Of a stretch of 64,000 nucleotides of DNA, positions 22,836 through 55,958 are shown one piece after another (the stretch's first letter is position 1; each line of letters starts with the position of its first letter). Under the pieces are notes generated by a model. The model saw nothing but the letters and a program-made list of their open reading frames with translations, was not told the DNA's origin and searched no databases. The position numbers were made by a program, and so were the translations under genes. The stretch comes from Halichondria panicea (taxonomy: Eukaryota > Porifera > Demospongiae > Suberitida > Halichondriidae), in NCBI RefSeq assembly GCF_963675165.1, contig NC_087382.1, positions 3,325,963 to 3,389,962 of the forward strand, given 5' to 3'.

Positions 22836-23925
22836 TGTGGGCAGCCATTCTGATCTGTTGTTCTGTTGTTGTTATGTGCAGTCGTAATTATGTGTAATGG
22901 AATTCCCCTTACACACAATAGAGGGTGTGTCTGGCATGTCAGTGGTGAGGGTATTCATATCATTCCAAGAATACAAGCTCCTCTGGGTACTACTGTGGTA
23001 CTCCCCCAGAGGAGATACAACACACATGCCTTGTAATTGAGAGCTAGCTGTGCAGTATTGGATCTTTCTTTATACCAGTGATATATAGTAGAGAGAACTT
23101 GATAATTATGGAGTGAGTGATATTGCATGGTTACTGTATAATTTCACTATAAATATAATTAAACTTTTACTCTATAGACAACAAGCTGAGGATTGGAGGG
23201 AGCCTGTTAGATGGCAGGGCCGGTAAGTGCATGATGTATGATTACTGCCATTACATGCAGTATATATAATTAAAAATAGGCAACAAGCTGAGAAGTTGCT
23301 TAGTACTGTTAATAATGGTGATGTCAGGAAAGTGAAGTCCCTGTTGGCACGTGGGGCCGACCCCAACCATCCTGATTGTTTTCCGTTACACCGTGCTTGT
23401 TTATTTGGTTACCTGGAGATAGTGAAGGCACTTGTTGAGGCTGGGGCAGACCCTGAGAGGAAGAATAAGGAGGGCTTGTCTCCAGTTCATTATGCAGCCT
23501 CTAACGGTCATAAGGAATTGTTGGTTTACTTGATCAGGGATTGCAAGGCCAGCGCTAGTGAGTAATAATTAGTTCTAATTCATTCAGCTGCTAAATGACT
23601 GTGTTTAAATAACGATGTATATGGGCTAATCACATCGCTATAGTTAGCTGCAGAGTGGGTTATAGTTTAAAAAACGACAAGGTTTTTCGGTTTTGACCTC
23701 TGATGGATCGTTATGTACATAAAATGTTCATTGGGCGCTTTGAGTACCTGGCCTAGAGAGGGCCATTAAAAGATTGCTCTTACATATGAAAATATTAGTG
23801 ACACCCAACATTCATGTATAGATACCAGGGACCAGTTCAACAATACTCCACTCCACTATGCATGCTATGATGGTGACCTAGATATGGTGCAGTACTTGGT
23901 GGAAAAAAAAAACTGTTGACCTTTT
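22836..23925 (+). pseudogene. Roco-array copy 1: truncated ankyrin gene
   Basis: The shared 5' block (GGGTGTGTCTGGCATGTC near 22923) is followed by ATGGA at 23108-23112, exon 2 at 23178-23222 (MEQQAEDWREPVRWQGR) and the main ankyrin exon 23280-23557 (GDVRKVKSLLARGADPNHP, ..EIVKALVEAGADPE.., PVHYAASNGHKELLVYLI). The next ankyrin exon starts at about 23822 (TRDQFNNTPLHYACYDGD) but its end is corrupted by an A-run, and it reaches a TGA after KKNC where the other copies have a splice donor. No later ankyrin, GTPase or Death exon follows; alsin-like tail sequence begins at about 23985. It is most simply a truncated pseudogene, though a short ankyrin-only product cannot be excluded. Confidence 0.75.
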
Positions 23926-27954: not shown

Positions 27955-30900
27955 GCATGGGCAGCCATTCTGTTGTTATGTGCAGTCACATGTGTAACAA
28001 TAGAGGGTGTGTCTGGCATGTCTGGCATGTCTGTGGTGGGGGTTTCATATCATTCCTATATCATGATCAGTGTGCTCATAGCTGCTAGTGGAGATGGAGT
28101 GAGTGATGATTAGTTACTGTTACAATAATGTCACTATATGTCAACTGTTACTCTATATATAGACAACAGGCTGAGGATTTGAGGGAGTCTGTTAGAATGC
28201 AGTCGGGGTAAGTGATGATTACTGCCATTTATACAGTGAAACGACTATTGATCAAATAGGAAGTTGTATAATGCTGCAAAAGATGGTGATGTCAGCGAAG
28301 TGAAGTCCCTGCTGGCACGTGGGGTCGACCCCAACCACCCCAAGTGCTATCCATTACACATTGCTTCTTGCAATGGTCACCTGAAGATAGTGAAGGCACT
28401 TGTTGAGGCTGGAGCAGACACTGAGAGAAGAGATGCTGGGGGCAGGTCTCCAGTTCATTGGGCAGCCTTTTGGGGTCATAAGGAGGTGTTGGTTTACTTG
28501 ATCAGGGATTGCAAGTCCTACTCTAGTAAGTTAATTAGCACTAGCCACTGCTACGTGACTCGACTGCATGTGACTGTGCATGTCTACATGCATAATAGAA
28601 ATCAATATGCATGTGTGTATGTTATACCAGGAATGCGAATCTAAATTATGTAATCAGTATAATTATACTATCATATCACAGTGGATATGCAATCATGGTC
28701 AGACTCACTATAATTATACCAGTAAGAGGCAAGGTTTGGGTTTCAACCTCTACTGTGTTACCAAGGGCGTAAGTTGTGGTCACAAATAAGCCTTATAGGG
28801 TATGGAGTGGGTGGTTGTGGGTGTGTTTTTTTTAGATTTTCACAAAAAGAAACCTGCTTGCATCCATGAAGCATGTAATTAAGTTGGCTTGTCCTTAATT
28901 TAGTGGATAGCCTCAACACAACAAGGTAGTAGTTTTAAATTTGTGTCAAATAAAAGCAAGCAAAATCGAATCAGTATTCTGCACGTTGGCCTAGAACAGG
29001 CGGCTTTGACTCAAGGCACTATAAACCTCAAATAAACGCTGAGAGTTTACACTTCAATGCTCCAGTTGTTTTTGGGTAGAGTTAACCACATACATCAACA
29101 AGTGGAAGAAAAGGACCGATGCTATATATTACCAGAGCTTCTGCTATTGCCAGAAAGTGAGTTTCTAAGCCTAAGATGTTAATAAGAAACTGCTACATCT
29201 ACTTCAGGGAACTCTGGTGATCTAATTTGGATCATTCGCAAAGGTTTTTCCCTTGAAAAGTATTGCCAGCAATACGGTTTTTGGTTATGCATTGTTAAGT
29301 ATAGGATAGACTACACATAAGAGTAAAATATGCATCTATGTAACCTCCGCGGTTGCGGTTAACCCGAGGCACAAACCCGACGGAATCTAACCGTAACCAA
29401 GGTGGTTACTAAGACGCATATTCTACGAGTGGGTGTGGTCTATCTTCATTGCTGATTACGCCCACTTCCTGTCACACGTGACTAGGGAAAATCCCATACT
29501 CAGCCAGGGGAAGGCGCATAATAGACTTGCGTAGAGCTTCCTTTGGCAGTTGATGCATCAGAACAACAGGTACAATCATTGAATCAAATTACAATAGCTA
29601 CAAAACTGATTAATAGCTAGCTGGTAGCTGTAGTAAAGCTTAAACTGAAAGGAGGGATTCGTGGCACCCTGGGATCTCGAGTCCCCCTGGATCCGCCACT
29701 GGGTCACCATGCAAGGTCTAGTGCAGTAGCTACTTGGTGGAGGCCCAGGATTTATTTTAGTGGAATGACATCTTACTAGTACATAGAACTGCTCGTGGAC
29801 TTCTTACAGACAGTAAACAATTCTCATGAATTATTCATGTTTAGCCCTCGTGTTAAAAAGTAAGCCTCGATTAAACCGCAGAGATACATGCATGGTACTT
29901 CGAGGGTACTTCCATTTCCAATCCCTCTCTACTCTATCTATGGTTAATGTGATTAACTCAACCACAACAATTATAAAATCTATCTGAAGCTACTGTAAAT
30001 GTGATTAGAAATGGATACCCTCCGGCCTCTCACAAACTCACATTCTATTAAGGTGTGTGGTCAACAAAAGAGGGCATAGCCAAACATTTTGCGGCGCTCG
30101 TAAATCTTCCCCCCCCCCCCAAGCGTTTTATCCTTGATAAAACCCTGAGTCCCACTGTGACATCAGTCCCCGTATCATACAACATTATGTTTCAGATGTA
30201 CGGAACAATGACAACGATACTCCACTCCACACTGCTTGCTTTCGTGGTCACCAAGATGTGGTGCAGTACTTGGTGGAGGAGGCTCACTGTGACATCAGTA
30301 AGTGCCAGTGTAGCTACATTGAAAGTCGACACTAATCTTAATATAATTATGCCCATTCTTGACAATTGGTACAGATGCACCTGGGAAGTATGGCAAGTCA
30401 CCCCTTGACATTGCTGAAGAGAATGGTTACAAGGACTACAAAACTAGGAGTCGAGCAGTTTCACTCGAACAAAAACGTAAGCACCCTAAATCCTATATAA
30501 TGGTTTTAATTAAGGTAGGACAGCAAAGAAACCTGGAGATAGCTAGTCTTGACCATAGATTAAAGAGGGAAAGGGATTGGAAACGGAAGTTACCTCGAAT
30601 TATATCTGCGTTACGCCGGGGTGTAATCGAGGCTTGAGTAAAATCTAAGTAGATAGTACCTTGCTGTCTGCAGTAGATTCTATACTACATTAACTAAAAC
30701 TTGCTCTTTCAACTGACACATATAATTATGGGACACAGTACACCAATGAGTTGCACAGTCTTAAGCCCCGTTTACACCAGGCCTTTAATCCAGGTTGGAA
30801 TCCTAACCGCGTTCGTGTAAAAGGCCCTTATCCGGGTTCCAATCCGGATTAGCCAACCCACCTCTGGAGGTGGTGCAGAAGCGGTTTAGCTGTGAGTAAA

Positions 30901-33900
30901 CAAAGAGCTAATTCTGAGGTGTTGTTCGGTGGGTGTTTCTAGAGTAAACCTGTAGCTTCCTATCAGCCAATGTTTCCGCAAACAAAATTAGTGGTAATTT
31001 TACTATGCCCACTACTCAGAAAAATCTGACCCGAATTAGTTGTCGTGTAAACGGGGCTTAATTAAGCTATTATAATTAAACATTTTACACATAAAGATCT
31101 ATATAATAGCAGGAGTACATGAATATTCATGTACTCCTGATAATAGCGTGACAAAACAACGTTTTGTACCTCTAGCTATCTTCACAAAAGTCAAAAATGT
31201 ATTTTTTCTTTTCCAACTGATGCTCTATTAGCTAGGGGGCATGAGAATGAAGCTTTAGGGCTGGGGGATCTGAATATCTTTCAGTGATCATAATTCATGA
31301 AACATTGTTTCCCGCGTGTTGCCGTAACATGGATTAACATCAAAGGCTCTCTGGTGCCATGCTGCAAATTCAATGTAAAATATCGCGTTATTTACTTCCG
31401 TTTCCAATCCTTCTCCTTCTTTAATCTATATAAACAAACTAGAGCACTAAAGTGCTAACTCTCGGCTGTTAATGTGAATACATTATAAAAATTAGGGAAG
31501 TACAACAACCTAGAAACTGGTAAAGGATCACTTTAGCTGCAAATATGTAGATCTACCTCGAATAAAGGTCACGTGTAGAGCTAGGCCAAGCTTTTTAGCT
31601 TTTGCTCGCTTTTATATGAGCTTTAACATCGATCTGCCACTAATAACTTGTTGTGTGAAGGCTATCCATGCTGTAAATGCAGTGCTATGGCATCCAGGTA
31701 AGCAAACTCACAAAATATATACAAACAAACAAACCTATACCCGTGGCCGCCCATTTGTGTCTCGGGTAATAAGAACAATTTTATGCACAGGAAAATATGG
31801 TGTTTTGAGTGAACCAGTTGTTCCACTCACACAAGACGAGGCTGATGCTCTGCAGAAGCTTCTCGAGGGAGCACAAGTCACCATTGGTTATCCCATTGTT
31901 GCTGGCACCACCACTCTGAAGGAAGTTCAGCAGCTGCTTACTCAGAGAGGACTGGTGGATATGGCCGCCAACCTCAGGACAGAACTCTATCAGAGTAAGC
32001 ACCCTAAATTAATGGAATAATTATAATTACAGTTTTCGAAGTTCTCACAGTTCAGCAAAAAAACCTGGAGATACTTGATAGTCTTATAAAGTCGACAAAT
32101 TCCATCACTCTTTGTTACCTAAAGCTGTTTCTTGTTGGGCCACCGTTTGTTGGCAAGACGACCACACTCAATCGATTGCTGAAATATTTCAAGAACATCC
32201 ATTTAGAACCTAACAAGGCAAAACTTAGGAGTACTCTTCTTGCTAACTGTTTGCAGGTATTTGCTTTAGTGAGCAACGATGGAACCGAATGGTTGTCTTC
32301 TAAAGATCTGAATGAAGAAGTTGCATTGTTGTTTAGATATTTCTGTGGCAGTGATCTTGAATCTGTAGGAAAAAGTGATCTTGATTTTGTAGGAAAGAGT
32401 GATTCTGAATCTGTAGAAAGTATTGATACTGAATCTGTAGAAAGTATTGATTCTGCAGCTGAAAACTTGAATTCTGAAATCATATACGAATCCACTACAC
32501 CACATACTAGAATTACCAAAGAAATTGTTGAGACAAGAGAAGTAGGAGATACCAAAGACGAACGGCTAGCTCGAGTACGAGACTGTATATCACGATTACA
32601 AAATGTGATCAAAGATAAAGATCAGTCTAAAGAACTGCTTAAACACATAGAGGGTAGCACACTGCTGAACATTAACGATATAGGAGGTCAACCTGCGTTC
32701 TTAGAGATGCTACCAGCCCTGAGCAATGGTCCGGCCATGTATCTAGTATTTGCTGACTTGAGCAAAGAGCTCAATAAGCCGTACAAAATTCCTTTCAGTC
32801 GAGATGACACAACTATCACTCCTTACGACGCCATGCATTCCGTTGAATCCACTGTTTCTCAGATCCTCTCTTCAATTGCTAGCATTCATCGCATCTCTCA
32901 AGAACCAGTTCCGTTTAAACTCGACAGATCAACTGCTTTTGGTCAGGAATTTGAGAAGCTCCAGGAAGTGCGTCCAATGGCAACACTAATAGGCACACAC
33001 AAAGACAAGTTAGAGGAACCGGTAGACCAGAAAATTTCGGAATTTGATTCAGCTCTTACGAAAGTTACTTCTAATTATAAGACAATCATTGCTAACCCTT
33101 CACCAAACCGCACAATTTTTGCAGTTGATAACTTTTCAGGAACAGATACAGAAGATATAGCACCAATCCGAGGTTTTTTGAGTGACATCTTCGAGAAACA
33201 ATTTAAAGATTCTTCTATTCCCATTCAACCAAATTGGCTCTGGTTTAGTCTGATACTGCGACGAGAATACTGCATTGCTCCGATGGATGATTGTGTTATC
33301 ATTGCTAGAGATCTTGGCATCGAAGAAGATGAGCTACAGCTTTGCCTTTGGTATCTTCACCATTGCACTGGAACCATAATGTATTATCCCAATATACCCG
33401 GGAAATACTTCAAAGGACATGTGATCTGCACTCCTCAAGTTGTGTTTGATAGCATTAGTGAATTTATTGTGACTTCTCTGCGCATTCTCCATGGTGATGG
33501 GGTGGTTATCGAATCAGAGCGAGTTGAACTGATTAAGAAGGGACAATTTTCGATCAAATCCATTGAAAAATACTGCAATTGTCCTCAAGTTAAGGAAAAG
33601 CTGAAAGAGAGTAAGCTTCTCCCAGCAAAGCAACTTGTAAAACTCCTTGAATATGTTCACCTTCTATCACCAATAGTCCATACGCAGTCAGACAAGGAAG
33701 AAATTACCTACTTAATGCCGGCTGTTTTGGAGTGTGCTTCACAAGAGGAGCTGGCGAACCCACCTCCACCAGACACCAACAACCCAGAACCACTCCACAT
33801 CACATTCAGCTTTGGTTACGTACCAACAGGAGTCTTCTGTGGGCTCATCACTCGACTAGTTTCCCAAGGCCCTCATGGAATACTCGGATTGACGTGGAAG

Positions 33901-35292
33901 TTGGTGGAAGATGGCGTCAAGAGAAACTGCGTTGCTTTCCATGTAGATGGTGTTCACAAGGTGACTCTGCTCTCGCACGAAAAGAGCTATGAAATTCGAG
34001 TTTCTCGTGAGGATCCAGAATCTTCTCTCCACGACCTTTGCGCTCATGCAATCTCGGTCGTTCTGTATTTCCTCAAAATCTTATATGAGAATTTGGTTCC
34101 ATTAATCGCATTCCAGTGTCCCTGTTCCAATCACAAAGCCGAACGAGACGTCACTAATTTATGTACTATTTCCGATGGTTCAAAAGTTCGATTTCTTTGT
34201 AAAGATTCTATGAAGCTCGTAAAATTAAAACCGGAGCAAAGGATCTGGCTTGGAAAGGTGAGTATCCATTGTACATATTATTATTTTACTTTTCCTACAG
34301 ACCAAGAAGGTTGGTGAGGAAGCTGAACTAGAGGTGCTAAAGTTTGCTGAGGATGGTTTCTCCTTCCACTGGACCAAAGAGGGCTCCAGACGTCAGATCA
34401 AGACAACTGACGATCGGCCCAACACTCTGAGTTTCCCGACTGTGAAAGAGGAGGACTTCGGTCACTACCAGTGTGAGGTGAAGGATGCAGCTGCTGGGAA
34501 AGTGCTCCTCACTCTCTACACAGCTCTCTTCAAAGAAGAGACAAGTCAGTTAGCAATGACGTATGCCGCACTTACGTTCCATCTTTATTTTTCTGCTTTA
34601 GAAGAATTCTCTGCTGAAAGGATTGAAGAGCCAAAAAGCAATGACACTAAATCTATTGTAAAGACACCATCATCAGGTTTGATTGTTTCTACGAACTATA
34701 TATGTATATAACACTGTTGTATAAATAATTATACTGAGCTATGTATATATTATGTAAGCATGGTTATATACATTGTTTGTTAACTTCCCCTCTACAGGAC
34801 CACCTGCTAATCGAGTCGCTCTCCAAGAACTAATGAGGCGATACAAACTGACTGACGAGCAACTCAACCGTGAAATAGTGGACTCCGATACTCCCGTAAT
34901 GGCCTTAAATTTTGATAATGTGGAAATGTATTCAACTGCAATGGGGCTAGCTATTGCTGAACAAGCTGATGTGAAGAAGGTGTACCATTGCGAAGGAACT
35001 CAAGCAGCCATGATGAAGTGTTTGAAAATCTGGAAAGAACGTGATCCTTTTCAAGCAAGTTACAGAGCTCTACTGGATATCGCACTGAGATTGGAGAAAG
35101 GAGAAACAGCTGATAAAATCTGTCAGCAATTGACCCAACGTAAGTACATGTATATGAGTGCCCCTCCCCCTTTACCACCCTCCTCTAGAAAGTACCTGAG
35201 TATAATTACAACTATACACAACAATTTAACTGAAATCACACCAGAGAAGTACAAAATGCACACCATCCTTTACAGATCGTACACTGGACTGA
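27955..35292 (+). CDS. Roco-array copy 2: ANK-Roc-COR-Ig-Death protein
   Basis: Eleven proposed exons give an intact 1208-residue frame: 28094-28098 (ATGGA), 28163-28207, 28260-28525, 30196-30297, 30375-30476, 31791-31994, 32033-34257, 34301-34544, 34602-34676, 34798-35139, 35276-35292. Residues 17-173 are ankyrin repeats (VKSLLARGVDPNHP, VVQYLVEEAHCDI). 174-241 form a helical module of unknown family (LTQDEADALQKLL, EVQQLLTQRGL). 242-983 lie on one 2.2-kb exon and hold Roc and COR: P-loop GPPFVGKT (277-284), switch DIGGQ (457-461), THKD (563-566), then YYPNIPGKYFKGHVICTP typical of COR. 984-1064 is Ig-like (FHWTKEG, YQCEV). 1090-1203 is a Death domain (QAAMMKCLKIW, YRALLDIALRL). ANK-Roc-COR-Death is the order in DAPK, but there is no kinase. 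Likely an intracellular GTPase-linked Death-fold signalling protein; function is inference. A Ser/Asp repeat is inserted in Roc (about 348-385). Confidence 0.83.
28526..30195. other. Long intron of Roco copy 2 with mobile debris
   Basis: Contains an inverted-repeat element at about 29302-29455 (ATAGACTACAC...TAACC mirrored by GGTTACT...GTGTGGTCTAT) and a decayed ankyrin piece at about 29705-29745 (GTGCAGTAGCTACTTGGTGGAGG). The latter suggests that this copy once had one more ankyrin exon. Confidence 0.55.
30477..31790. other. Intron of Roco copy 2 holding a broken Roc-exon start and mobile elements
   Basis: At about 30518-30570 the start of a Roc exon is recognisable (ACAGCAAAGAAACCTGGAGA, encoding QQRNLEI) but breaks off. 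An inverted pair, TTGGAAACGGAAGT at about 30577 and its complement near 31395, brackets the rest and probably marks another insertion. The TTAA-flanked element at 30765-31057 lies inside. Confidence 0.6.
30765..31057. mobile_element. TTAA-flanked MITE (piggyBac-like target)
   Basis: Ends GCCCCGTTTACAC and GTGTAAACGGGGC are perfect inverted repeats, bounded on both sides by TTAA (30761-30764 and 31058-31061). About 293 bases, no coding content. TTAA target duplication is the hallmark of piggyBac; assignment rests on that alone. Confidence 0.7.
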
Positions 35293-39574: not shown

Positions 39575-42500
39575 GCAGTCACATGTGCAATGGAATTCCC
39601 AGGGTGTGAATGGTATGTCAGTGGTGAGGGTATTGATATCAATCCAAAAATACCAGCTAGTGAATATAATCAGTAAACCCATTCTTCTCAGTCTAGCTGC
39701 AGCCAAGGTGCGGATAGTAGAGAATATGGAGTGAGTGATCATTGCTGCCACAATAATGTCACTATTGAACTGTTTAATACTCTATATAGACAACAGGCTG
39801 AGGATTGGTGGGGTAGTTCGAGGGAGGCTGTTAGATCGCAGTCCAGGTAAGTGATGCTTACTGACATTACAGTAAAACGACTATTATATATGCTGTTTTA
39901 CTCTAATTAAATAGGAAGTTGTATAGTGCTGCTTATAATAGTGATGTCAGCAAAGTGAAGTCTCTACTGTCACAAGGGGTCGACCCCAACCACCCCGAGT
40001 GCTTTCCACTACACATCGCTTGTTCATTTGGTCACCTGGAGATAGTGAAGGCACTTGTTGAGGCTGGAGCAGACACTGAGAAATGGGATGATGACGGCAG
40101 GTGTCCAGTTCATTGTGCAGCCTTGTTTGATCAAAAGAAGGTGTTGGTTTACTTGATCAGGGATTGCAAGTGCAGCGCTGGTAAGTCATTAGTTTATTCA
40201 CTATAGCTACGGCTATATACATGACTATGTCTACATAATACAAATCAACTGTGTGTACATTATATACCAGGGAATGAAACATTATATTATCGATCATCAC
40301 ATCTCACTAAAATTGGTTAGCTGCACAGAGGATTATAGTTTATACAAGGGACATGATCTGTTTTGACTTCTGTATTAATTTTGATGATAGATTATTATGT
40401 ATATACAAATGTTCATTCTGCGCATTGGGTACCTAGCTTATATAGAAATAGTTGTACCATGGATATCAAGGGTGTATTGGATTTGTACTACCAGGGCAGT
40501 TGTATGTATTCCCTGCACAGGTAGCTTGTACTATGAACACGTATATTGCAATTAGAAGCTGTTATCCAACCCATTTTTACAACTGAATAGTTACTGTAGT
40601 AAACACTTTTTGATCCCTGCCGTGCATGCACTGTGCACATTTTGTGTGCATGTGCTTGCACTTGACAAACCACATACAACTTCACACCCAGTTCCAATAT
40701 GGTCCGGTAGTTTTAGTGAATCTGATTGGATACTAAAGAATTGATCTTCACAATGTGATCCTATAGTGTGTCACAGTAGTGATCTATAAAAGAGTAGTTT
40801 CCTTTAAGGGTGGAGGGTGGGCTTTAGGCTGACCACAGCCAATGTACCCTAGGGTACATGAATGTACACCCTAGTAGCAGAGGAGGTATGACAGGCGCGG
40901 TGCAGCTCAGGCAATTAACACAATAATTATCCGCCCACGTCGTATGTTTTTGTTGAGAGTAATCAGAGGCTAATTGCTAGAGTTGCACCGCACCTGTCGG
41001 ACCTCCTCTGCCCTAGTAGGGTACATGGGATTTGTGCCCTGGAGTATCCTGAGAGTTTCAATGGATATTCCTTAGTGTCAGAGCACATCACGGTGCAAGG
41101 CCATTAAGAGGTTAATTCCTTATAATACTATCTAGATGAACACAGTAAGTAAGAGCAATGTTAATACTTAGTGACACCATGAAACATTAATGTGTAGATA
41201 CCACAGACAAGAACAACAAAACTCCACTCCACACTGCATGCTCTGGTGGTCACCTAGATGTGGTGCAGTACTTGGTGGAGGAGGCCCACTGTGACATCAG
41301 TGAGTGTATCATATTTCTTTCCTCGTAATAGACATTATGACTGTAACTTCCAGATGTATGGAACAAGTACAATACTCCACTTCACTATGCATGCTCTGGT
41401 GGTAACCAAGGTGTGGTGCAGTACTTGGTGGAGAAGGCCCACTGTGACATCAGTGAGTGTCTTTAAACCATTGTATAGCTGCATTGACTCATTGAAAGAT
41501 CTCTGACACTATAATCTTACACCCATGCACTCTTGACTATATCGATACAGATGCAACTACTAAGCATGGCAGGACACCACTTAACATAGCTAAAGAGAGT
41601 CAGTACAAGGAAATCGTTGACTACCTCAAGACTCGACAAGAATCATCTCCTAGACAACTAGGCAAGTTATGCACAAACACTTACAGTATCCCATGGCAAC
41701 CTAAACGTGTGTATTTCATCGTAGTACAAGATTCATAATTTCATTTCTTGTCATCAGGAAAAGATGGTGTGACAAGTGTTGGGAGTCAACCAGCTGTTCC
41801 ACTCACACAAGACGAGGCTGATGCTCTGCAGAAGCTTCTCAAGAAAGCATGGGTCAACATTGGTCATCCCATTGTTGCTGGAACCACCACTCTGGAGGAA
41901 GTTCAGCAGCTGCTTACTCAGAGAGGACTGGAGGATATGGCCACCAACCTCAGGACTAAAATCAGTCAAAGTAAGCACCCTAAGTCAATGGATGTTTTTT
42001 GTTGATATAATTATTACAGTTCTTGCAGTTCAGCGAAGAAACCTGGAGATACTTGATAGTCTTATGAAGTCGACAAATTCCATCACTCTTTGTTACCTAA
42101 AGCTCTTTCTTGTTGGGCCACCGTTTGTTGGCAAGACGACCACACTCAATCGGCTGCTGAAACATTTCAAAAACATTCGTTTAGAACCTGATAAGGCAAA
42201 GCTTAGGAGTACTCTTCTTGCTAACTGTTTGCAGGTATTTGCTTTAGTGAGCACCGATGGAACCGAATGGTTGTCTTCTAAGGATCTGAAAGAAGAAGTT
42301 GCACTGTTGTTCAGGTATTTCTGTGCCAGTGATTTTGAATCTGTACAAAGTGGTGATTATGAAAACATCAGATACAAATCCACTACACCACCTAGTCCTC
42401 TTTCCAAAGAAATTGTTGAGATAAGAGAAGTGGGAGATGACACCACAGATGAACGACTAGCTCGAGTACGAGACTGTATATCACGATTACAAAATGTGAT

Positions 42501-45500
42501 TAAGGATCAAGATCAGTCTAAAGAACTGCTTAAACGCATAGAGGATAGCACACTGCTGAACATTAACGATATAGGAGGTCAACCTGCATTCCTAGAGATG
42601 CTACCAGCCCTGAGCAATGGTCCGGCCATGTATCTAGTATTTGCTGACTTGAGCAAAGAGCTCAATAAGCCGTACAAAATTCTTTTCAGTCGAGATGACA
42701 CAACCATCACTCCTTACGACGCCATGCATTCTGTTGAATCCACTGTTTCTCAGATCCTATCCTCAATTGCCAGTATTCATCGCATCTCTCAAGAACCAGC
42801 TCCGTTTAAACTTGACAGATCAACTGCTTTCGGTCAACAATTTGAGAGGCTCCAGGAAGTGCGTCCAATGGCAACACTAATAGGCACACACAAAGACAAG
42901 TTAGAGGAACCGGTGGACCAGAAAATTTCTGAATTTGATTCAGCTCTCACAAAAGTTACTTCTAATTATAAGAAAATCATTGCTAACCCTTCACCAAACC
43001 ACACAATTTTTGCAGTTGATAACTTTTTAGGAACAGATGAGATGGATATAGCACCAATCCGAGGTTTTTTAAGTGACATTTTCAAGAAACAATTTCAAGA
43101 TTCTTCTATTCCTATTCAACCAAATTGGCTCTGGTTTAGTTTGATACTGAGACGAGAATACTGCATTGCTCCGATGGATGATTGTGTTATCATTGCTAAA
43201 GATCTTGGCATCAAAGAAGATGAGCTGGAGCTTTGCCTTTGGTATCTTCACTATTGCACTGGAACCATAATGTATTATCCCAATATACCCGGGAAATACT
43301 TCAAAGGACATGTGATCTGCACTCCTCAAGTTGTGTTTGATAGCATTAGTGAATTTATTGTGGCTTCTCTGCGCACTATCCATGGTGATGGGGCGGTTAT
43401 TGAATCAGAACGAGTTGAACTGATTAAAAAGGGACAATTTTTGATCAAATCCATTGAAAAATACTGCAAATGTCCTCAAGTGAAAGAAAAGCTGGAAGAG
43501 AGAAAGCTTATCCCAGCAAAGCAACTTGTGAAGCTCCTCGAATACGTTCACCTTCTATCACCAATAGTTCATACACAATCAGACAAGGAAGAAATTACTT
43601 ACTTAATGCCAGCTGTTTTAGAGTGTGCTTCACAAGAGGAGCTGGCGAACCCACATCCACCAGACACCAACAACCCAGAACCACTCCACATCACATTCAG
43701 CTTTGGTTACGTACCAACAGGAGTCTTTTGTGGGCTCATCACTCGACTAGTTTCCCAAGGCCACTATGGAATACTCGGATTGACGTGGGAGTTGGTGGAA
43801 GATGGTGTCAAGAGAAACTGCGTCTCTTTTCTGATTGCAAAATCAAATAAGATAACGTTAATATCTCATGAAAGAAGTTACGAAATACGAGTTACTCTAA
43901 ATCACGCTCATCTCTCCCTGCACGACCTTTGCACCTATGTTCTCTCAGTAGTTCTCTACACACTCAAGAGCATGTACGAGCAGCTAGTCCCACAAGTTGC
44001 GTTCCAGTGCCCATGTCCTGGTCACAGCTCAAGCACAGATAGAAATTCCTTGTGTATCCTGACAGAAGATGTATGGATTCAGTTTCTGTGTGGCAGTAAT
44101 CCCATTACCTTGAGGAAGGAGCAGACAGTTTGGCTTGGAAAGGTGTGTGTACAGTTAGCGTACGTACAATTATGTGCATGTGTTCTTACTTGTTTTAATT
44201 TTGTACTGTTTGCAGCTGTGTATCAATCTTAGTCACAATAATTTTTCCCTTCATTTTAACAGACCAAGATGGTTGGTGAACAGGCTAAACTAGAGGTACT
44301 AAAGTTTGCTGATGATGGTTTCTCCTTCCACTGGACCAAAGAGGGCTCCAAACGTCAGATCAAGACTAGTGATTATCAGCCAAACACTGTGAGCTTCCTG
44401 AGTGTGAGAGAGGAGGACTTTGGTCACTACCAGTGTGAGGTGAAGGATGCAGCTGCTGGAAAAGTGCTCCTCACTCTCTACACAGCTCTCTACAAAGAGG
44501 AGACAAGTGAGTTTGCACTGTACAATTGTGTGTGCCATAATGGCAATCTTCCACTTAATTTTTTTCTGCTTCAGGTATATTCTCTACTGAAGAGTCAAGA
44601 CGCAATAGTACCGAGTCCAATAAATCTATTGTGAAGACCTCATCATCAGGTTTGTACAAACTGAAACACTGTGTTCGCTGATCACTCCTATAGATGAGGG
44701 GTCCCTGTCATCAGAAAGGCTCCAATACTCAACAGATCCAGTCCAGAGAGTAGGAACTCCAATATCATCATCAGCAGGTGGTGACAGTCAAGTCCGTAAT
44801 AGAAGAGGTAAAGAATAACCCCACTGCTAAATCATATGTATGTTTATGATGTTGAGATGCCATGTTAAATTTGAAGTAAAAACTGTTGTGGTCGGTATGG
44901 TGTGAAATTGGTCATTTGTCTAGACCATTGTACGTATGTTTCTCATGTGATTTTCTCCTCTTAATAATTATGAAAAGACACTGATTGTCTACATTGTGAG
45001 TTCGTTTCATGGTTGTTCCTACAGAATTGTTGCTGTAACAATGGCCTTGGGGTCTAATCTCTAGAGCTTTATTATTATTATAGTTTGAAGTCCTTCATTT
45101 CTGTGGCAGAATATAAAAATAACATAATTATATAGGTCACATTGGAGAGTCTGTTGTGGAGGTCACTAACAAATCTAAAAAGTTTAGTAATTTTGGAATT
45201 AAGATTTCTGTCCTGGAAAATTCGCTACCTGAAGGTATCGATACGTGTGTCCTACACATATCCTTTGAGTTATCCACTGACTTTGAGATTCCTGCTAACT
45301 CTGAACTAGTCAGTTCAATTTATCATGTGAAATGTGAGCCCAAAGTACAGTTTAAGAAGCCTCTCATCTTGGAAATACAACACTGTGTGAGCTTAAACTC
45401 TGGCCATGAACAAAGGCTTGTCTTTGCTCGAGCAACCGATGAGAGCAAAAAGTTTGAGATCCTGGACGGTGGTCACTTTCCTATTGGTGAACGCTATGGA

Positions 45501-48500
45501 TCCATCCAACTCACTCGTTTTAGTTGGTTTAGTACTTTGTGTGAAGCATTAGGTTTTACAACTGAGAGGATGTACAGTGCATTGCTGTTCAGAAAGAACT
45601 TGCCCCATCACAAAATTGACATGAAATGTGTGGTATGCCAGAATCTAGCAACTCATGTAAAGGTAGGTTTCTATTTTTTCCACAGTTAGAATTTGATAGT
45701 TAAGGAAGCCTATACAATATACGCCTACCAGTGTTACACTGATATTTATGAGCTTTCATTATAATAATTACAGGTAATTAGAGAGGAGTTAGAAAAAGAT
45801 AGATACACAAAAGAAATGGATCTAGATCAAATTCAATTTGAAAATGCAGTAGAGATGGAGCTGCATTCAGAGAATCCCGAGCTTTGGACTGTTACTAGGG
45901 TAACACCCACTGTGAGTTATAATTTATAGTATAGACATGCAGTAATATTAAAACAAAAGCATAGTACACTCTTGGAGGATATTATGCAACAAAACAATGG
46001 ACAGGTGTGACTATTACATATGCTTGCTTAATTGTAGCTGTCCAGGCATCAGATTGATGGATACGCAACAAGAGTATTGGATTCTGATAGACGACCTGCA
46101 GTTATTCCAGCCATCCAATATAGATTTAACCTGAAGGAAAATTTTGTTTCTGAATCAGTAAACTTTCTGCTGACGAAAACCGATTTAGATGAAGAGAGCC
46201 AACACTTGACCCTACATATTTGCTGTAAGCAATTCTACTACTGGTATTACATAGAAAATAAAAATTATTTTCTTGTACATGTATACCATGCACTGTCCTG
46301 ATACTTGCGTGCACAAACCTAACAACTTCTTTTCCTCAGTACCCCACACTCTGGGAAGGAGTGACTCAACGACACAGACACAGAGAGGTCAGTTCATGTG
46401 TATATAATTATAGACCATGCAATGGGTAGCTATTTGTGTACGTTCTTTAAGTGCACCTTGTTGACCCATAAAAACCTGGAAGTGAATACTAGTATGACTT
46501 GTATAATATCAGTGCAGAGTTATAAAGAGAAATATATTTGGGTTCACATCATATTAGTCTGGGGGCCGGGGCCAGACCTTTTCTCGGAGGATGGGAGGGC
46601 TTGATTTTGCCCCTGAGATATTAGATCTGGCACCCAGACTAGCATGCACTAGATATCACAGTGTAATTACACTTTATACACACAACAGACTCAAACGCTT
46701 TCTTGTACTGAGTCCAGAAAGAGTTGTTGTGGTATCCCTGTTAGGCTAGTTGCAGCCATATGTAATTGTTTGCTTTTGGGAAAATCTGTAGCTATAATTA
46801 TACCACACTTATGTCACCACTAATTGGTCAACAGCTGTAGGATACATAGAAAAATTACATACAGCCCCAGTCATGCACCCGTTTTCAAGCCATGCTTGAC
46901 AGTACTAAGATTCAAAGTGACGGCAAAAACATGGAAGCTGCTCTCCAACAAGATGGCTAAGTCTCCATGGGTCCATGGGCGTGGTTAGATACATTTATCT
47001 AAGAAGAGCTTGCAACTCCAGTGAGGGCGTCGAATGGTCAACGCTTGGACCAAGGAAGCTCTTGAGCATCTGTAAGAGTCGAGGTGTTGCTCAACTAGTT
47101 CTTTGACGGCTGTAAAATCCGGCATAGTCTTGTTCTTTTTGCAGTCTGCATCTGCATCGTAGATCGAATTGTTGCTAGGGGAGGTTCCTTTTGTAGAGCT
47201 GCGGTCACGCGTAGTATAAGTCAGCTATGCCACACCTTCTCGGAGAATATACACCCCATATATCCTCCTCTTAGATATACTTATATCTACATCCTAATCT
47301 AGAAAGTTGCCTTCTTGAAGGTATACGGTATTGTTTGGTGGTCTATTTGGTATACTTAAACCTTTTATAGTTAGAGATAAAACAATAGTTTGCTCATGTT
47401 GACAGTGGAGCTGGTCCCACACTGACCTTAAGCAATTATTCGGTATAGTTCATATCATTGCCCATCAATCTATATAATTATGCTCCCACTAATTTACAGC
47501 ATGCATACAAAACTCTAACTGCAGTATAATTATACGTACCAATATATACCTTGCTTGCATCTGTTCTTTTTTGTCTGCATGCATTGCTGTATTCATGGTC
47601 GGTACTGGTTTCTGTTTGCTATCTCTAAATAGGACCTCTCGCTACTCAAGTCACTCTCCAAGAACTAATGAGGTGGTACCAACTGACTGACGAGCAACTC
47701 AGCCGTGAAATAGTGGACTCCCATACTCCCGTAATGGCCTTAAATTTTGATGATGTGGAACTTTATTCAACTGCAATGGGGCTACTTCCTGCTGAACAAG
47801 CCGATGTGAACAGATCATGTAGAACTCAAGCAGCAATGATGATGTGCTTGCAAATCTGGAAACAACATGATCCTTCATGAGCAACTTACAGAGCTCTATA
47901 TACTGGATATCGTACTAACATTGGGGAAAGGAGACACAGCTCATCAAATTTGTCGGCAATTGATCCAACGTAAGTACATGTCGTGAGTGTTAGTACTCCT
48001 CCCCCTTTTCCACCCTCTTCTATAGAAAGCAACTGACTATAACATTTAACTGAAATCACGCCAGAGAAGCATTCTACAAAAATTCCTGCCTGCATGCATA
48101 TACCGTATTTACTTGATTAAACGCCCGAGCGTATATTTCCTAGAAACATCTGCATGTAGAGGGGCGTTTAAACGAGATGGGCGCTTATTCGAAAAGGGCA
48201 TTTATTGTTTTGTCTACTTCAAACTCTTGCTCATCAGCAGTTATTATGCTCTTTTTGGCTGCTGCCACAGCTCTCAGCTTAAATCTTAAGTCGTAGGAGT
48301 GGTGTTTCTCCTTCATCATAAACAATCTATGCTGCCATTGTTTCAGCTGGTTCCATGTGCTAATTCAGCTCCGCCCACAGTGCCACGCCCATACATGGGC
48401 GATTATTAAGAGGGGCGTTTATTGACAAAGACAGCTTTTACCATGGGCGTTTAATCAAGTAAATTTGGTATACATAATTATGCCGCCATAATTATTTCTA

Positions 48501-50274: not shown

Positions 50275-53200
50275 TTTGTGGGCAGCCATTCTATGTTGTC
50301 ACATGTGTAATGGAATTCCCCTTACACACAATAGAGGGTGTGTCTGGCATGTCTGTGGTGAGGGTATTCATATCATTCCAAGAATAACAAGCTAGTGATT
50401 GAGCCCATTTTTCTCTAGCTAGCTGCAGTCAAGGTGCTAGTGGAGAATATGGAGTGAGTGATGTGATTACTATACCACATTATTATTAAACTGTTACTCT
50501 ATAGACAACACCGTGACGCTGAGCACTTGAAGGAGGATGTTAAATTGCAATCCCAGTAAGTGATGATTATTTCTAATTATGGCTATGTAAACTGTTACTG
50601 TAAGGAAATTGGATAAAGCTGCAAGAAATGGTAATGTCAGCGAAGTGAAGTCCTTGCTGGCACGTGGGGTCAACCCCAACCACCCCGGATGCTCTCCATT
50701 ACACAGTGCTTGTAAGATTGGTCACATGGAGATGGTTAAGGCACTTGTTGAGGCTGGAGCAGACACTGAGTTGGCCATGGACAGGTATCCAGTTCATTGG
50801 GCAGCCTTGAGGGGTCATAAGGAGGTGTTGGTTTACTTGATCAGGGATTGCAAGTGCAACGCTAGTGAGTCATTATATAGTTCATTCACTAGCCACTGCT
50901 ACATGAATATTGTGTCTACATAACATTATTGTTGTACGTTTTACCATGCAGGAATAGGAATCTACATTATTTTTATAGTTATTGATAATTACATCTCCGG
51001 CACTAAAATTAGTTAGCTGCAGGGTGCATGGATTGTATATATACGGGCCAAGGCAGTTTGACCCCTGTATATTTCATGATGGGTTGATATGTACACAAGC
51101 TGTTCATTTGGCGTGCCTTGAGCACGTGGCTTAGGGATGGCCATTTAGAAAGGTTCTTCTTACTCTTATAGATGGACACAGTAAATATAAAGAGCAATGT
51201 TAGTGACACCAACATTCATGTGTAGATACCAGGGACAATGACGATGATACTCTACTCCACATGGCATGCCTTGGTGGTCACCTAGATGTGGTGCAGTACT
51301 TGGTGGAGGAGGCCCACTGTGACATCAGTGAGTATATCATATCTGTCTCCGTATATCATACAATAACTATGATAAACATTATATGACTGTATAACTTTCA
51401 GATGTAAAAAACAAAAACAATTCTTCTCCACTCCACAAAGCATGCATTCGTGGTCACCAAGGTGTGGTACAGTACTTGGTGGGGAAGACCAACTGTGACA
51501 TCAGTGAGTTTGTCATTTTCTGTCCTGGTATTACCGTATAGCGGGCTATTTTCGAGACACAAAATTTTTGCGGATAAAGTATTTTGAGGATTTTATTTTC
51601 GAAGGGAGCGGTTTAAATGACCACACCCCTACAGCAAACCAATTTTTCAAGGCACTAAATTTTCGTGTTTCTGGGTCATCCTCGAAAACCTCGAAAATAA
51701 CCAACTATATACGATATATACAAATGTAACTATGACTGTAACTTTTCAGATGTACGGAACAATAAGAACGATACTCCACTCCACTATGCATGCTCTGGTG
51801 GTCACCAAAATATGGTGCAATACTTGGTGGAGGAGGCCCACTGTGACATCAGTGAGTCATATCTGTCCGTGTATCATGTAAATGTAATTAACATTATGCA
51901 TGGTTGTAACTTTCAGATGTAAGGAACAATGAAAACGATACTCCACTCCACAATGCATGCCTTGGTGGTCATCAAGGAGTGGTGCAGTACTTGGTGGAGA
52001 AGGCCAACTGTGACATCAGTGAGTGTATTTAAAGCAGTGTAACTAAGCCTACATTGATTTGAAAGCCCTTAATAATTCTGCATAATGCAAGGAGCCCTGT
52101 GCCAAATATATACCACACTTGGGGTTTGTATCATATCAACTTAACTACTATAAACTCCACATTCCTCATAAACCTCCCAGGCCCTTGCCTTGAGAACACA
52201 TACTACACAGCCTAGACACTAGTTGGCTAGACGGGGACGAGTTTCAAACGTGCATTGCGTACTAGTTATGAATACCATAACATTAGCCGCGCCTCTAACT
52301 GAAATGCATTACATAAAGCAGTCTGCAATCTAATTGGTGCTTGCGGCAGAATGAATGCTTGATGGTTTGAAACCCGTCCTCCTGTTGGGAGGCGGGCTAC
52401 GCCTATCTACTAGTTGGCAAGGGCAAAACAGATGGGTGGGGCTTGCTAAGCACCAGGAGAAAAGGTGAGGCTCACTGCTTGGACATGGACAAGTTAGTGC
52501 GTATAGAGCTATAGAAGCTTAGCCTTGTTCCCAGGCCTTACTTTTTCTTGCTGTTGTCACTGTTCATCCATAAACATAAGAAAGACATAGTGAGGCAGCA
52601 AAGAAAGAAATGGGCGTACAGTTAAGAAAAAGTAAGGCCTGGTTTGGGAAATCGCGTGATCCACAAGGATTTTTATGAACGTGGGCGATATGTAGCCCAC
52701 AATCGTGACGTAAGGTATTCTCCCACGCATTCGGAGTAAGACTGTACTGTACTGCACTGAGACAACCACCAAGCTGTGCTGCAAGTCAGATCAGAGAACC
52801 AGCGTGGCCAGCTCTGGTGGCAGTAGCTACCTGCTATATGATAATGATGACTAAGCTATTCTACTATAGCATGTAGAAAGACACAAGAAAGGTAATAGTG
52901 ATAGAATCTAAACACACAATCTAGACTAGTAGATCATCTAGCTAAGCCTAAGGTATAGCTAGCTATAGTGCCCCTTCTACCACCCTTCTACCCTCACACG
53001 ACTTCCAACTTTACGTCTATTTCTTTCTTTATTCCTTCAATTAATACCGTATTTTATCTTATTGAACGAATAATACAGTATTTTATCTTATTGAACGATT
53101 GTGATAAAGAACAGTGTGTAGAGGCTAATAGAAGCTTAGCACTGGCTACAAGCTATACCACAAGCTTTTCAATAGTTTTAAACTATGCACTCCCATTGAT

Positions 53201-55958
53201 TACAGATGCAACTAATAAGTGTGACGAGACACCCCTTGGCATAGCTGAACTGAGAGATTACAAGTATATTGTTGACTACCTCAAGACTAGACAAGAATCA
53301 TTTCCTGGACAACCAGGCAAGTTATGAGAACATTCCACCAGACAGTATCCCATGGCAACTTAAACGTGTGCATTTCAACTTAGCAAACACTTCATAAGCT
53401 TTAGACATGTTATATTCATTTCTGGTATAAGATTACATTTATTATTATATTACTTACATTCAGGAAGTTTACTGCCATAAATTCTGATGTAGTGGACACT
53501 GAATATATAGCTTTAACTATTCTACAAACACTGTTGTTAACTGATCACTCCTATAGATGAGGGGTCCCTGTCATCAGAAAGGCTCCAATACTCAGCAGAT
53601 CCAGTCCAGAGATCTACAATATCATCATCAGCAGGTGGAGACAGCCAGGTCCATACTCAAAGAGGTAAAGTAATTAACACTGCTGGATCAGATGCTTAAA
53701 TAATATTGTGTACTATACAGGGAGTACATGCAGGAAGCGTAAAAACACCGAATTTATTGTGAAAACACCATCACCAGGTTTGTTTGCTTGTAACTGTTAC
53801 ACACTGTTTTTAACTGAAAATGCACTGTCTCCTATAGAGGAGTCAAGGAAAAGGCGCAAGTGCACAGCTTCAGCTAGTGACAAAGTCATTACTACTCAAA
53901 GAGGTAAATTACTGCTGAATCAAATAACTAGATGATTTGTATGTATAATTGTTGACGCCACTAATCAATGCTCATTTCCCCTCTACAGTACCACCTGCTA
54001 ATCGAGTCGCTCTCCAAGAACTAATGAGGCGATACAATCTGACTGATGAGCAAGTCAACAGTGAAATAGTGGATTCTGATATTCCTGAAATGGCCTTATG
54101 TTTTGATGATGTGGACATGTATTCAACTGCAATGGGACTAGCTATTGCTGAACAAGCCGATGTGAAAGAATCACGTGGAAATCAAGCAGCAATGATGAAG
54201 TGCTTGAAAATCTGGAAGGGACATAATCCTTCACGAGCAACTTACAGAGCTCTACTGGGTATCGCACTAAGATTGGGGAAAGGAAACACAGCTGATCAAG
54301 TCTGTCAGCAATTGACCCAACGTAAGTACATGTGTATCAGTGCCCCCCCCCATCTAGAAGGCATAATTACGATAATTGGACTGAATTCACACGATACAAA
54401 AGTGCCTCCTGTGTATGTACAGTGCATCCAGCTTAGAGAGTAGATTACCACAAATGTGTGAGTGGCTGTACTTAAACGTTGATACCTTTTGATTGGAACC
54501 TTTTTAAGAAATGGTGCTGATACCATTGTGTAGGTGAATGAATAAGCTACAACATATCCCAAAAATGTCCATGAAAACATGAGGTGGTGGGTTTGGGGGG
54601 ATTAATAAGAACAACAGTAAATTGTTGTAGTGGGTAATCGGTTAGAGTAATAAAACACTAACCTTAAACAGCTAAGGTCTCAGACTTCATAAGATAATTG
54701 TTGAATGGTTTAGGTGTCCTGGCTATCCTTCATGAGTCTTATATATGTTCACAGTGCCTATAATTCATGATTTACTGGTTTTCAGGTGTACTTTTGGTTA
54801 GAGTAATAACTTCTGAAAAATTAATAGCTTAGCTTTCAAATTTCTCTAATAAGTTTACAGATTAAATTGGCTACATTTTGATACCAAGAACATCCTCTAT
54901 GCTTATTCCATTGCTGAGATAACACTGAAAAACTACAAATTTTACTACTTTCTACTGTTTTGATGATATCAACAGCTGCAAACCAATGACGCTCTAATCA
55001 ACCACATAAGTGGGCACACAATAACTGTACGGCATACAATAACTGTACGCCCACTCTTTATTAAGCTTGTGGTTGATTAAAGCGTCATTGGTTTGTGGTT
55101 AGCAGATGTCAAGAGGTTATACCATAGCAAAGGTACTCGAGCAGCCATGTTGAAGTGTTTGAAAATTTGGAAACAACATAATTCTTCACGAGCAACTTAC
55201 CGAGCTCTACTGGATATCTAGCCTCGATTCCAGGCCGCTAAGAGAGGGCCTGGTATCGACTGTTTGCGCATGCGCCACCTATTACCCAGAAAGTGGGTAA
55301 TTCGGATACCATTGTATTTTGCTCAGTAAAACAATGACGTCACAACGAACGGAAGTGGATTGAAGAAAGTGGATAGAAGTGTGATTGTAGCCCGTGTGAT
55401 AGCATTCTAATAGCTACCCTTAGCCTACTATGTTAACAAAGGACTCACAGCCTGCAACAGTGTGGACCTCTGAACGGAGGGGAAGGCTGACAATAGCCTA
55501 CATGTATATGGATAGGCCACGCCCATCTGACACTAACCTTGGTGAAAGTCGACTCTATCAGAAAGAAATTGCTGCTGTAACCAATACAGCTCTGTATCTA
55601 GCTAGCTAGCTATATAGCTCTGTGTCTGACTTTATGAAGTTTGTCTGTATAATTTATGTTATTCAGGATATAATTCGGGTAAAATTCAGTTTAATGGGAA
55701 ACATTACGGGAATATTATCCAATAATTTTGCGCATGCGCAAGCAGTCAGTAGCAGGCCTAATTGTTTAGGCCTTGAGAAGGAGGCTACTGGATATCGTAC
55801 TAAATTTGGGGAAATGAGAAACAGCTGATAAAATCTGTCAGCAATTGGCCCAATGTAAATACATGTGTATCAGTGCCCCTCCCCCTTTTAACAATAATGT
55901 GCCTCCATGTATGTACATACCATCTACTTTTTCTGTTACAGATCGTACACTGGACTGA
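50275..55958 (+). CDS. Roco-array copy 4: ANK-Death protein without GTPase
   Basis: Thirteen proposed exons give an intact 471-residue frame: 50449-50453, 50505-50555, 50605-50864, 51226-51327, 51402-51503, 51750-51851, 51917-52018, 53206-53316, 53557-53664, 53721-53777, 53838-53903, 53989-54321, 55942-55958. Residues 19-278 are ankyrin repeats, with four single-repeat exons plus the closing one, more than in copies 2 or 3. Residues 279-355 are a Ser/Arg linker with a basic cluster (SRKRRK), a possible nuclear signal. Residues 356-466 are a Death domain that keeps the full C-terminal part (RATYRALLGIALRLGKGN) lost in copy 3. The helical module, Roc-COR, Ig, ZU5 and UPA exons are all absent; a bare acceptor with an in-frame stop at about 53464 may mark where the helical module was. 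The Death-to-last intron (1.6 kb) holds a second broken Death exon. It could act as an adaptor or competitor for the longer copies; that is speculation. Confidence 0.8.
51532..51716. mobile_element. MITE, TACCGTATAG family, eroded right end
   Basis: The left end TACCGTATAGCGGGCTATTT is clear. The right end (CGAAAATAACCAACTATATACG) matches imperfectly. It sits between two ankyrin exons of copy 4. Confidence 0.65.
52019..53205. other. Ankyrin intron of copy 4 with two hairpin elements
   Basis: 52228-52387 has inverted ends (GGACGAGTTTCAAAC mirrored by GTTTGAAACCCGTCC). 52519-52660 has inverted ends (CCCAGGCCTTACTTTTTCTT mirrored by AAGAAAAAGTAAGGCCTGG). The rest is AT-rich, with a tandem TACCGTATTTTATCTTATTG pair near 53045-53100. 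No exon is seen. Confidence 0.6.
54964..55105. repeat. Inverted-repeat element in the last intron of copy 4
   Basis: AACCAATGACGCTCTAATCA (about 54981) is mirrored by TGATTAAAGCGTCATTGGTT (about 55073-55092), with an internal direct repeat of CATACAATAACTGTACG-like bases. It abuts the broken Death exon. Confidence 0.7.
55106..55865 (+). pseudogene. Broken extra Death-domain exon interrupted by a MITE
   Basis: The second half of a Death exon is recognisable (GCAGATGTCAAGAGG, then GCAGCCATGTTGAAGTGTTTG, encoding RAAMLKCLKIWKQHN) up to CTGGATATC. It resumes after the MITE with GTACTAAATTTGGGG... and the usual donor region near 55856. Its start is lost at the inverted-repeat element. Its text is closer to copy 2 than to copy 4, so it descends from another array member. 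Confidence 0.75.
55219..55787. mobile_element. 569-bp TAGCCTCGAT element with 9-bp target duplication
   Basis: Starts TAGCCTCGATTCCAGGCC, ends GGCCTTGAGAAGGAGGCTA (imperfect inverted match). Flanked by the exact duplication CTGGATATC (55210-55218 and 55788-55796). Because the broken Death exon gives the uninterrupted sequence, the empty site is known. Non-coding interior. Confidence 0.88.

Follow-up and report, generated by a model that had tools for sequence, protein, structure and literature searches.

The window analysed here is a stretch of 64,000 nucleotides of the genome of the sponge Halichondria panicea, in which related gene copies with ankyrin repeats (copies 1 to 4) are found; the subject of this study is copy 3 (39726..47880, + strand), a Roco gene into which a ZU5-UPA cassette appears to have been inserted. 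Copy 3 had been predicted to form one frame over 16 exons, and this chain was borne out by the DNA: the spliced exons gave a single frame of 1518 amino acids followed by a stop, all splice sites were in place, and 14 of the 15 introns were GT-AG, the remaining one, after exon 6, being GC-AG. Exon 1, with 5 nucleotides, was the weakest exon call of the model. The encoded modules were arranged in the order of ankyrin repeats, a helical module, Roc-COR, an immunoglobulin-like (Ig) domain, a linker, ZU5, a UPA-like stretch, and a Death-type exon. Exons 3-11 and exon 16 were collinear with three RefSeq paralogues of H. panicea (P0002, P0005, and P0006), and exons 12-15 constituted the sole large block of copy 3 missing from these proteins. 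What is peculiar to copy 3 is the ZU5-UPA cassette and not the ANK-Roc-COR-Ig-Death layout, which is a recurrent layout in the H. panicea genome. None of the database proteins retrieved was highly identical to the window over a long distance.

The borders of the cassette were located by DNA homology. Homology to neighbouring family members extended through the linker (exons 10 and 11, 44575..44807, +), which is common to copy 3 and its paralogues, to about position 44838, and was found again from 47622. Between these points, the segment 45062..46413 (+) was 72-85% identical, introns included, to ZU5-UPA loci elsewhere in the genome, a related ZU5-UPA unit being present at ten other genomic places. 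When ten ZU5 loci were compared in 45 pairs, the main common block began within about 100 nucleotides of the ZU5 exon in 42 pairs and further upstream in the other 3. Both exon 11 and exon 15 ended in phase 1, so that exons 12-15 form a phase 1-1 cassette that could be added or skipped with the frame kept. Among the aligned relatives, the splice sites were retained in 7 of 9 for exon 13 and in 7 of 8 for exon 14, the remainder being incompletely aligned, and the position of the exon-12 acceptor was shared by 5 of 9. The homology thus shows ZU5-UPA as a cassette inserted as genomic DNA in a phase-1 intron between the linker and the Death exon. The idea that ZU5-UPA is a nested gene was set aside because the other loci share only the ZU5-UPA exons with their introns.

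Roc or COR joined to ZU5 was found in none of the 72 homologues, and no ZU5 Pfam label was carried by the 120 listed rows of 196 database proteins. Distances in the genome were examined between 71 Ig matches and 74 ZU5 places, from which 24 rows consisting of UPA-exon pieces and fragments had been left out. Only two Ig exons, that of copy 3 and that of its upstream neighbour, were followed on their own strand by a ZU5 within 25 kb, and in both cases by the same one; on contig C10, two Ig fragments with stops were located 3.0 and 8.0 kb downstream of a ZU5 rather than upstream of one. The cassette was also observed in other settings, namely Death-ZU5-UPA-Death-Death (P0029) and ANK-kinase-ZU5-UPA (P0031). 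Many ZU5-UPA exons of a more distant kind, about 30-38% identical, were present as well, mostly clustered on contigs C8 and C14. Intron 15 of copy 3 contained a dispersed repeat of about 490 nucleotides (46788..47274, no strand assigned), which was absent from the paralogous introns compared and was present in at least 39 other places (40 of 421 candidates scored).

Exon 12 (45136..45662, +) encodes ZU5 (residues 1154-1229 by Pfam), which has a Phe-Ser pair close to its end, and the first part of the UPA-like stretch. The ZU5 call held, with a Pfam score of 22.9 bits over the cut-off of 21 and an hhalign probability of 96.7, over columns 8-107 only, against other ZU5 genes of the H. panicea genome; these genes in turn gave ZO-1, ankyrin, and UNC5B as PDB matches. 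The PDB sequence searches with the ZU5 exon and the family profile gave no match at E values up to 1 and 10. In contrast to ZU5, the predicted UPA was not confirmed: no Pfam match to UPA was found in exons 12-15, and the model of P0029, built from 5 sequences, was too poor (mean predicted local distance difference test score, pLDDT, 35.9). The UPA-like stretch and tail in exons 13-15 (45774..46387, +) are named by position only. Near the end of ZU5, Phe was present in all ten aligned copies and was followed by Ser in 8, Cys in 1, and Glu in 1, the equivalence of the positions being judged by eye as the hhalign match ends before them. According to excerpts of the literature, NLRP1, CARD8, and PIDD undergo self-cleavage at SF/S or HF/S through attack by Ser, Thr, or Cys (PMC3210808), and a histidine is required for cleavage of this type (PMC8081665). 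The Phe-Ser pair of copy 3 is only a lead to a possible FIIND-type self-cleavage site, and it makes the idea of self-cleavage directly testable.

Upstream of the cassette, ankyrin repeats are encoded by exons 3-6 (39915..41661, +; Pfam Ank_2, E 2.6e-42 on the spliced protein), followed by the helical module in exon 7 (41758..41970, +; residues about 225-284). The latter had no significant Pfam match, recurs directly before Roc in the paralogues, and was modelled as helices in the paralogue P0003. Exon 8 (42020..44142, +) encodes the Roc GTPase, with the P-loop GPPFVGKT and the DIGGQ and GTHKD stretches, directly followed by COR, the order that defines the Roco family. On the spliced protein, Pfam scored Roc at 16.2 of the 27 bits of the cut-off and gave no match to COR. 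The predicted Roc-COR core was nevertheless supported through the structure modelled for P0003, to which copy 3 is 45% (Roc) and 73% (COR) identical. The list obtained by a structure search with the whole P0003 model was taken up by Roc-COR and is uninformative about the Ig and Death domains and the helical module. In a further structure search, the rows of 23-65% ranked below the Roco entries were left aside. Within exon 8, the nearest relatives of the segments of 43201-44142 differed (94-97% identity), which suggests exchange between members of the array; the nearest-paralogue table covered about 3.2 kb around each fetched locus together with copies 2 and 4, and its coverage was uneven along the gene. 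No kinase, which precedes the ankyrin repeats in the DAPK group, was found in the Pfam scan of copy 3, unlike in another family member, P0020. In the same scan, NACHT and NB-ARC, by which NLRs are recognised, were not found, nSTAND3 reaching only 12.9 of 27.2 bits over 24 residues. The possibility that copy 3 is a membrane receptor was set aside, the peak 19-residue hydropathy being 1.39; the usual threshold for a membrane segment is 1.6.

The Ig-like domain in exon 9 (44263..44506, +) was without a cysteine at the usual B-strand place. With the spliced protein, Pfam gave 21.3 of 30 bits for Ig_3 and 20 of 27 bits for Ig_2, each below the curated cut-off, and with the exon alone 26.5 of 30 bits for Ig_3 (E 9.1e-6), which is significant yet still under the cut-off. 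PDB sequence matches of the exon were mainly Ig proteins (best E 4e-4). The Ig domain of the original prediction thus stands on the sequence profile, whereas its fold was not resolved in the P0003 model. The prediction had also regarded an Ig adjoining COR as an oddity. Such an arrangement is indeed absent from the Roco papers examined, and no description of a Roc-COR-Ig or Roc-COR-ZU5 protein, or of a sponge Roco expansion, was found in the open-licence PMC literature, a scope that excludes subscription papers and preprints. It is not, however, special to copy 3: COR followed by Ig was observed in 27 of the 72 homologues, 24 of them named H. panicea, with a Death-type segment after Ig in 11 of the 27. 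Furthermore, the H. panicea genome contained 71 matches to the Ig exon, of which 59 were nearly full length (2 of these with stops) and 19 were on one strand within 306 kb of contig C6; such six-frame counts of large families are lower bounds. COR was upstream of Ig at all ten fetched Ig loci (L009-L018, copy 3 included). These counts rule out copy 3 as the sole Ig-bearing Roco.

The Death-type exon 16 (47633..47880, +) was truncated. It stops at 47880, while 8 of 9 paralogues continue through the last helices of the Death domain; an untranslated remnant of the rest of the exon was recognised by eye at 47881..47970 (+), with homology past the stop to 47898. The open frame of 83 amino acids was, as read from the table, the shortest among 150 scored rows of 470 candidates. 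No Pfam match to the Death domain was found in exon 16, and copy 2 had a weak one (17.5 of 22.6 bits). The complete Death domain expected for copy 3 is therefore not there, and the C-terminal Death domain of the DAPK group, kept by the paralogues, is cut short in it. Death-type exons were very numerous, with at least 150 places resembling exon 16 among the 470 candidates, and the Death domain model of P0003 resembled RAIDD (2o71; template modelling score, TMt, 0.75, E 0.079). The Death tail was short in another family member too, at locus L032.

Copy-specific changes were divided into silent and replacement ones and tested against the expectation without selection, with uniform mutation assumed and small counts. 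In exon 16, 3 of the changes confined to copy 3 were silent and 16 were replacements, in line with an absence of selection (P 0.80). The corresponding numbers were 9 and 7 in the ZU5 exon (P 0.0024), 6 and 5 in COR (P 0.0036), 5 and 7 in Ig (P 0.087), and 11 and 13 in exons 12-14 pooled (P 0.0055). The ratio of nonsynonymous to synonymous substitution rates (dN/dS) between copies 3 and 2 was 0.31 for Roc, 0.29 for COR, 0.33 for Ig, and 0.68 for Death. By the copy-specific changes, ZU5 and COR look constrained and the Death exon looks neutral. Given a truncated Death domain with such neutral-looking changes, Death-fold assembly by copy 3, as originally proposed, is doubtful.

The other copies and family members showed how variable these genes are. 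Copy 2 (28264..35144, +), used as the comparator, has the order ANK-helical module-Roc-COR-Ig-Death without ZU5-UPA. In copy 4 (window 50609-54233), matches to Roc, COR, and Ig were missing between the ankyrin repeats and the Death exon, and copy 1 (window 23296-23916) is an ankyrin exon near which other family domains were not found. Elsewhere, P0020 (LOC135347138, H. panicea) is kinase-ANK-TIR-helical module-Roc-COR-Ig, and P0024 carries SH3 labels. Two isoforms listed for the single locus LOC135337431, X3 (P0048) and X7 (P0006), differ in their Roc-COR modules, and P0048 further has an Ig upstream of Roc; tandem copies may be used alternatively at this locus. Many unnamed database proteins of about the size of the Roc-COR exon (P0085-P0176) were 47-95% identical to P0003 over two thirds of it.

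From these results, we consider it reasonably probable that copy 3 is an exon-shuffled variant of an expanded, NLR-like ankyrin-Roco family, in which ZU5-UPA was inserted and the Death step was probably lost. Members of this intracellular family usually have the order of ANK, helical module, Roc-COR, Ig, linker, and Death. A ligand or partner would be bound by the ankyrin repeats, the nucleotide and oligomer states of the Roc-COR GTPase would then change, and Ig together with ZU5-UPA may relay or gate the signal to the C-terminus, which ZU5-UPA could hold. The paralogues would use their Death domain to recruit partners that carry such a domain. Owing to the truncation and the neutral-looking changes, this recruitment was probably lost in copy 3, which might act via ZU5-UPA, or else regulate intact members or serve as their decoy. 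To liken the logic of the family to that of NLRs is fair, and the family may have an immune role.

Several points weigh against this reading. The change counts are small and uniform mutation was assumed, and the branch on which the copy-specific changes arose may have begun before the insertion. Exons 13-14 alone had 2 silent and 6 replacement changes, and the helical module had a dN/dS of 1.27 against copy 2 (60 codons, dS 0.095), so that decay may extend to all of copy 3. The structure models left UPA, Ig, and ZU5 unresolved, the pLDDT of the Ig region in P0003 being about 25. It is conceivable, though unlikely, that copy 3 is turning into a pseudogene, in which the insertion and the truncated end yield no useful protein and the constraint is left over or comes from exchange with neighbours. 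The truncated Death exon would fit this, as would the short Death tail of L032, and exchange, with parts of exon 8 being 94-97% identical to paralogues, could mask decay; 1518 open codons with every splice site in place and the lean of ZU5 and COR towards silent changes argue against it. An opposite view takes copy 3 for a functional receptor whose ZU5-UPA and C-terminal Death domain jointly drive Death-fold assembly as in PIDD or UNC5. In its favour, all parts are in one frame, and P0029 of this genome likewise has Death-type exons after ZU5-UPA. We regard this view as improbable in view of a Death exon that is truncated, neutral-looking, the shortest in open frame among the scored rows, and without a Pfam match. 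Lastly, the array is highly repetitive, as the 19 Ig matches on contig C6 illustrate, and it might have been misjoined in the assembly, or the locus might hold two genes with ZU5-UPA separate and nested. Both are very improbable, since the donor-type segment differs by 10-13% in exon 12 from its nearest relatives, and no flanking exons of another gene accompany the shared ZU5-UPA exons and introns.

The favoured reading, an exon-shuffled variant with a probably lost Death step, makes copy 3 one step in the change of a repertoire, in which an existing receptor gene took up a cassette of matching phase, introns included. A wider proposal is that H. panicea has a Roco-based NLR-like system, with a chassis of ANK, Roc-COR, and cytosolic Ig and with cassettes (Death, ZU5-UPA, TIR plus kinase, and SH3) exchanged by exon shuffling at the DNA level, ZU5-UPA possibly cleaving itself at Phe-Ser to release the C-terminal part as in NLRP1 and CARD8; this is speculative and, as a whole, unlikely. 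As far as the sequence goes, both the layout and the unusual ZU5-UPA cassette insertion are real, the gene belonging to a large, little-described Roco family.

Several known systems can be compared with copy 3. MALT1 is a cytosolic protein in which Death and Ig domains are joined; it is a paracaspase without Roc-COR. Among metazoan Roco proteins, excerpts describe the Roco groups, DAPK1, and Trichoplax, whose ROCO genes number at least 17 and carry CARD, Death, TIR, TPR, LRR, and AAA domains (PMC4104024, PMC6337361). Copy 3 resembles DAPK1 and the Trichoplax proteins in the Roc-COR core and the repeats before Roc, some of these metazoan proteins having a Death domain, but DAPK1 has a kinase before the ankyrin repeats and copy 3 has none. 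Neither Ig after COR nor ZU5 is mentioned for these proteins in the same excerpts, both words having 0 occurrences in that of PMC4104024. Copy 3 shares ZU5 with PIDD, UNC5, ankyrins, and the FIIND of NLRP1 and CARD8, and its Phe-Ser near the ZU5 end compares with SF/S or HF/S (PMC3210808, PMC8081665); it differs in that ZU5 sits after Roc-COR-Ig, UPA is assigned by position, and Death is truncated. The LRR-ROCO genes of brown algae, like the copy 3 family, are expanded, exon-shuffled, and proposed as immune receptors, whereas the repeats of copy 3 are ankyrin and its shuffled part is a signalling cassette after COR (PMC11378527, in part). The same source gives 9-47 ROCO genes per brown algal species, stated as more than in other species; going by the Ig count, our results suggest that the number in H. 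panicea may be above this. Sponge NLR sets include NACHT-Zu5 and NACHT-Ank (PMC12909245), and the immune receptors of H. panicea were surveyed with Pfam from transcripts for NACHT, TIR, SRCR, and other families (PMC8242945), Roco being unmentioned in the sections available from that survey. The NTPase of copy 3 is Roc, with no NACHT in the Pfam scan, whereas the Roco family and the sponge NLR repertoires, as far as these excerpts describe them, are alike in being large sets of cytosolic genes that combine repeats with an NTPase. If the family is expressed and functional, an early-branching animal would have two ways to a large repertoire of intracellular receptors, this Roco-based one and that of the NACHT NLRs described from sponges.

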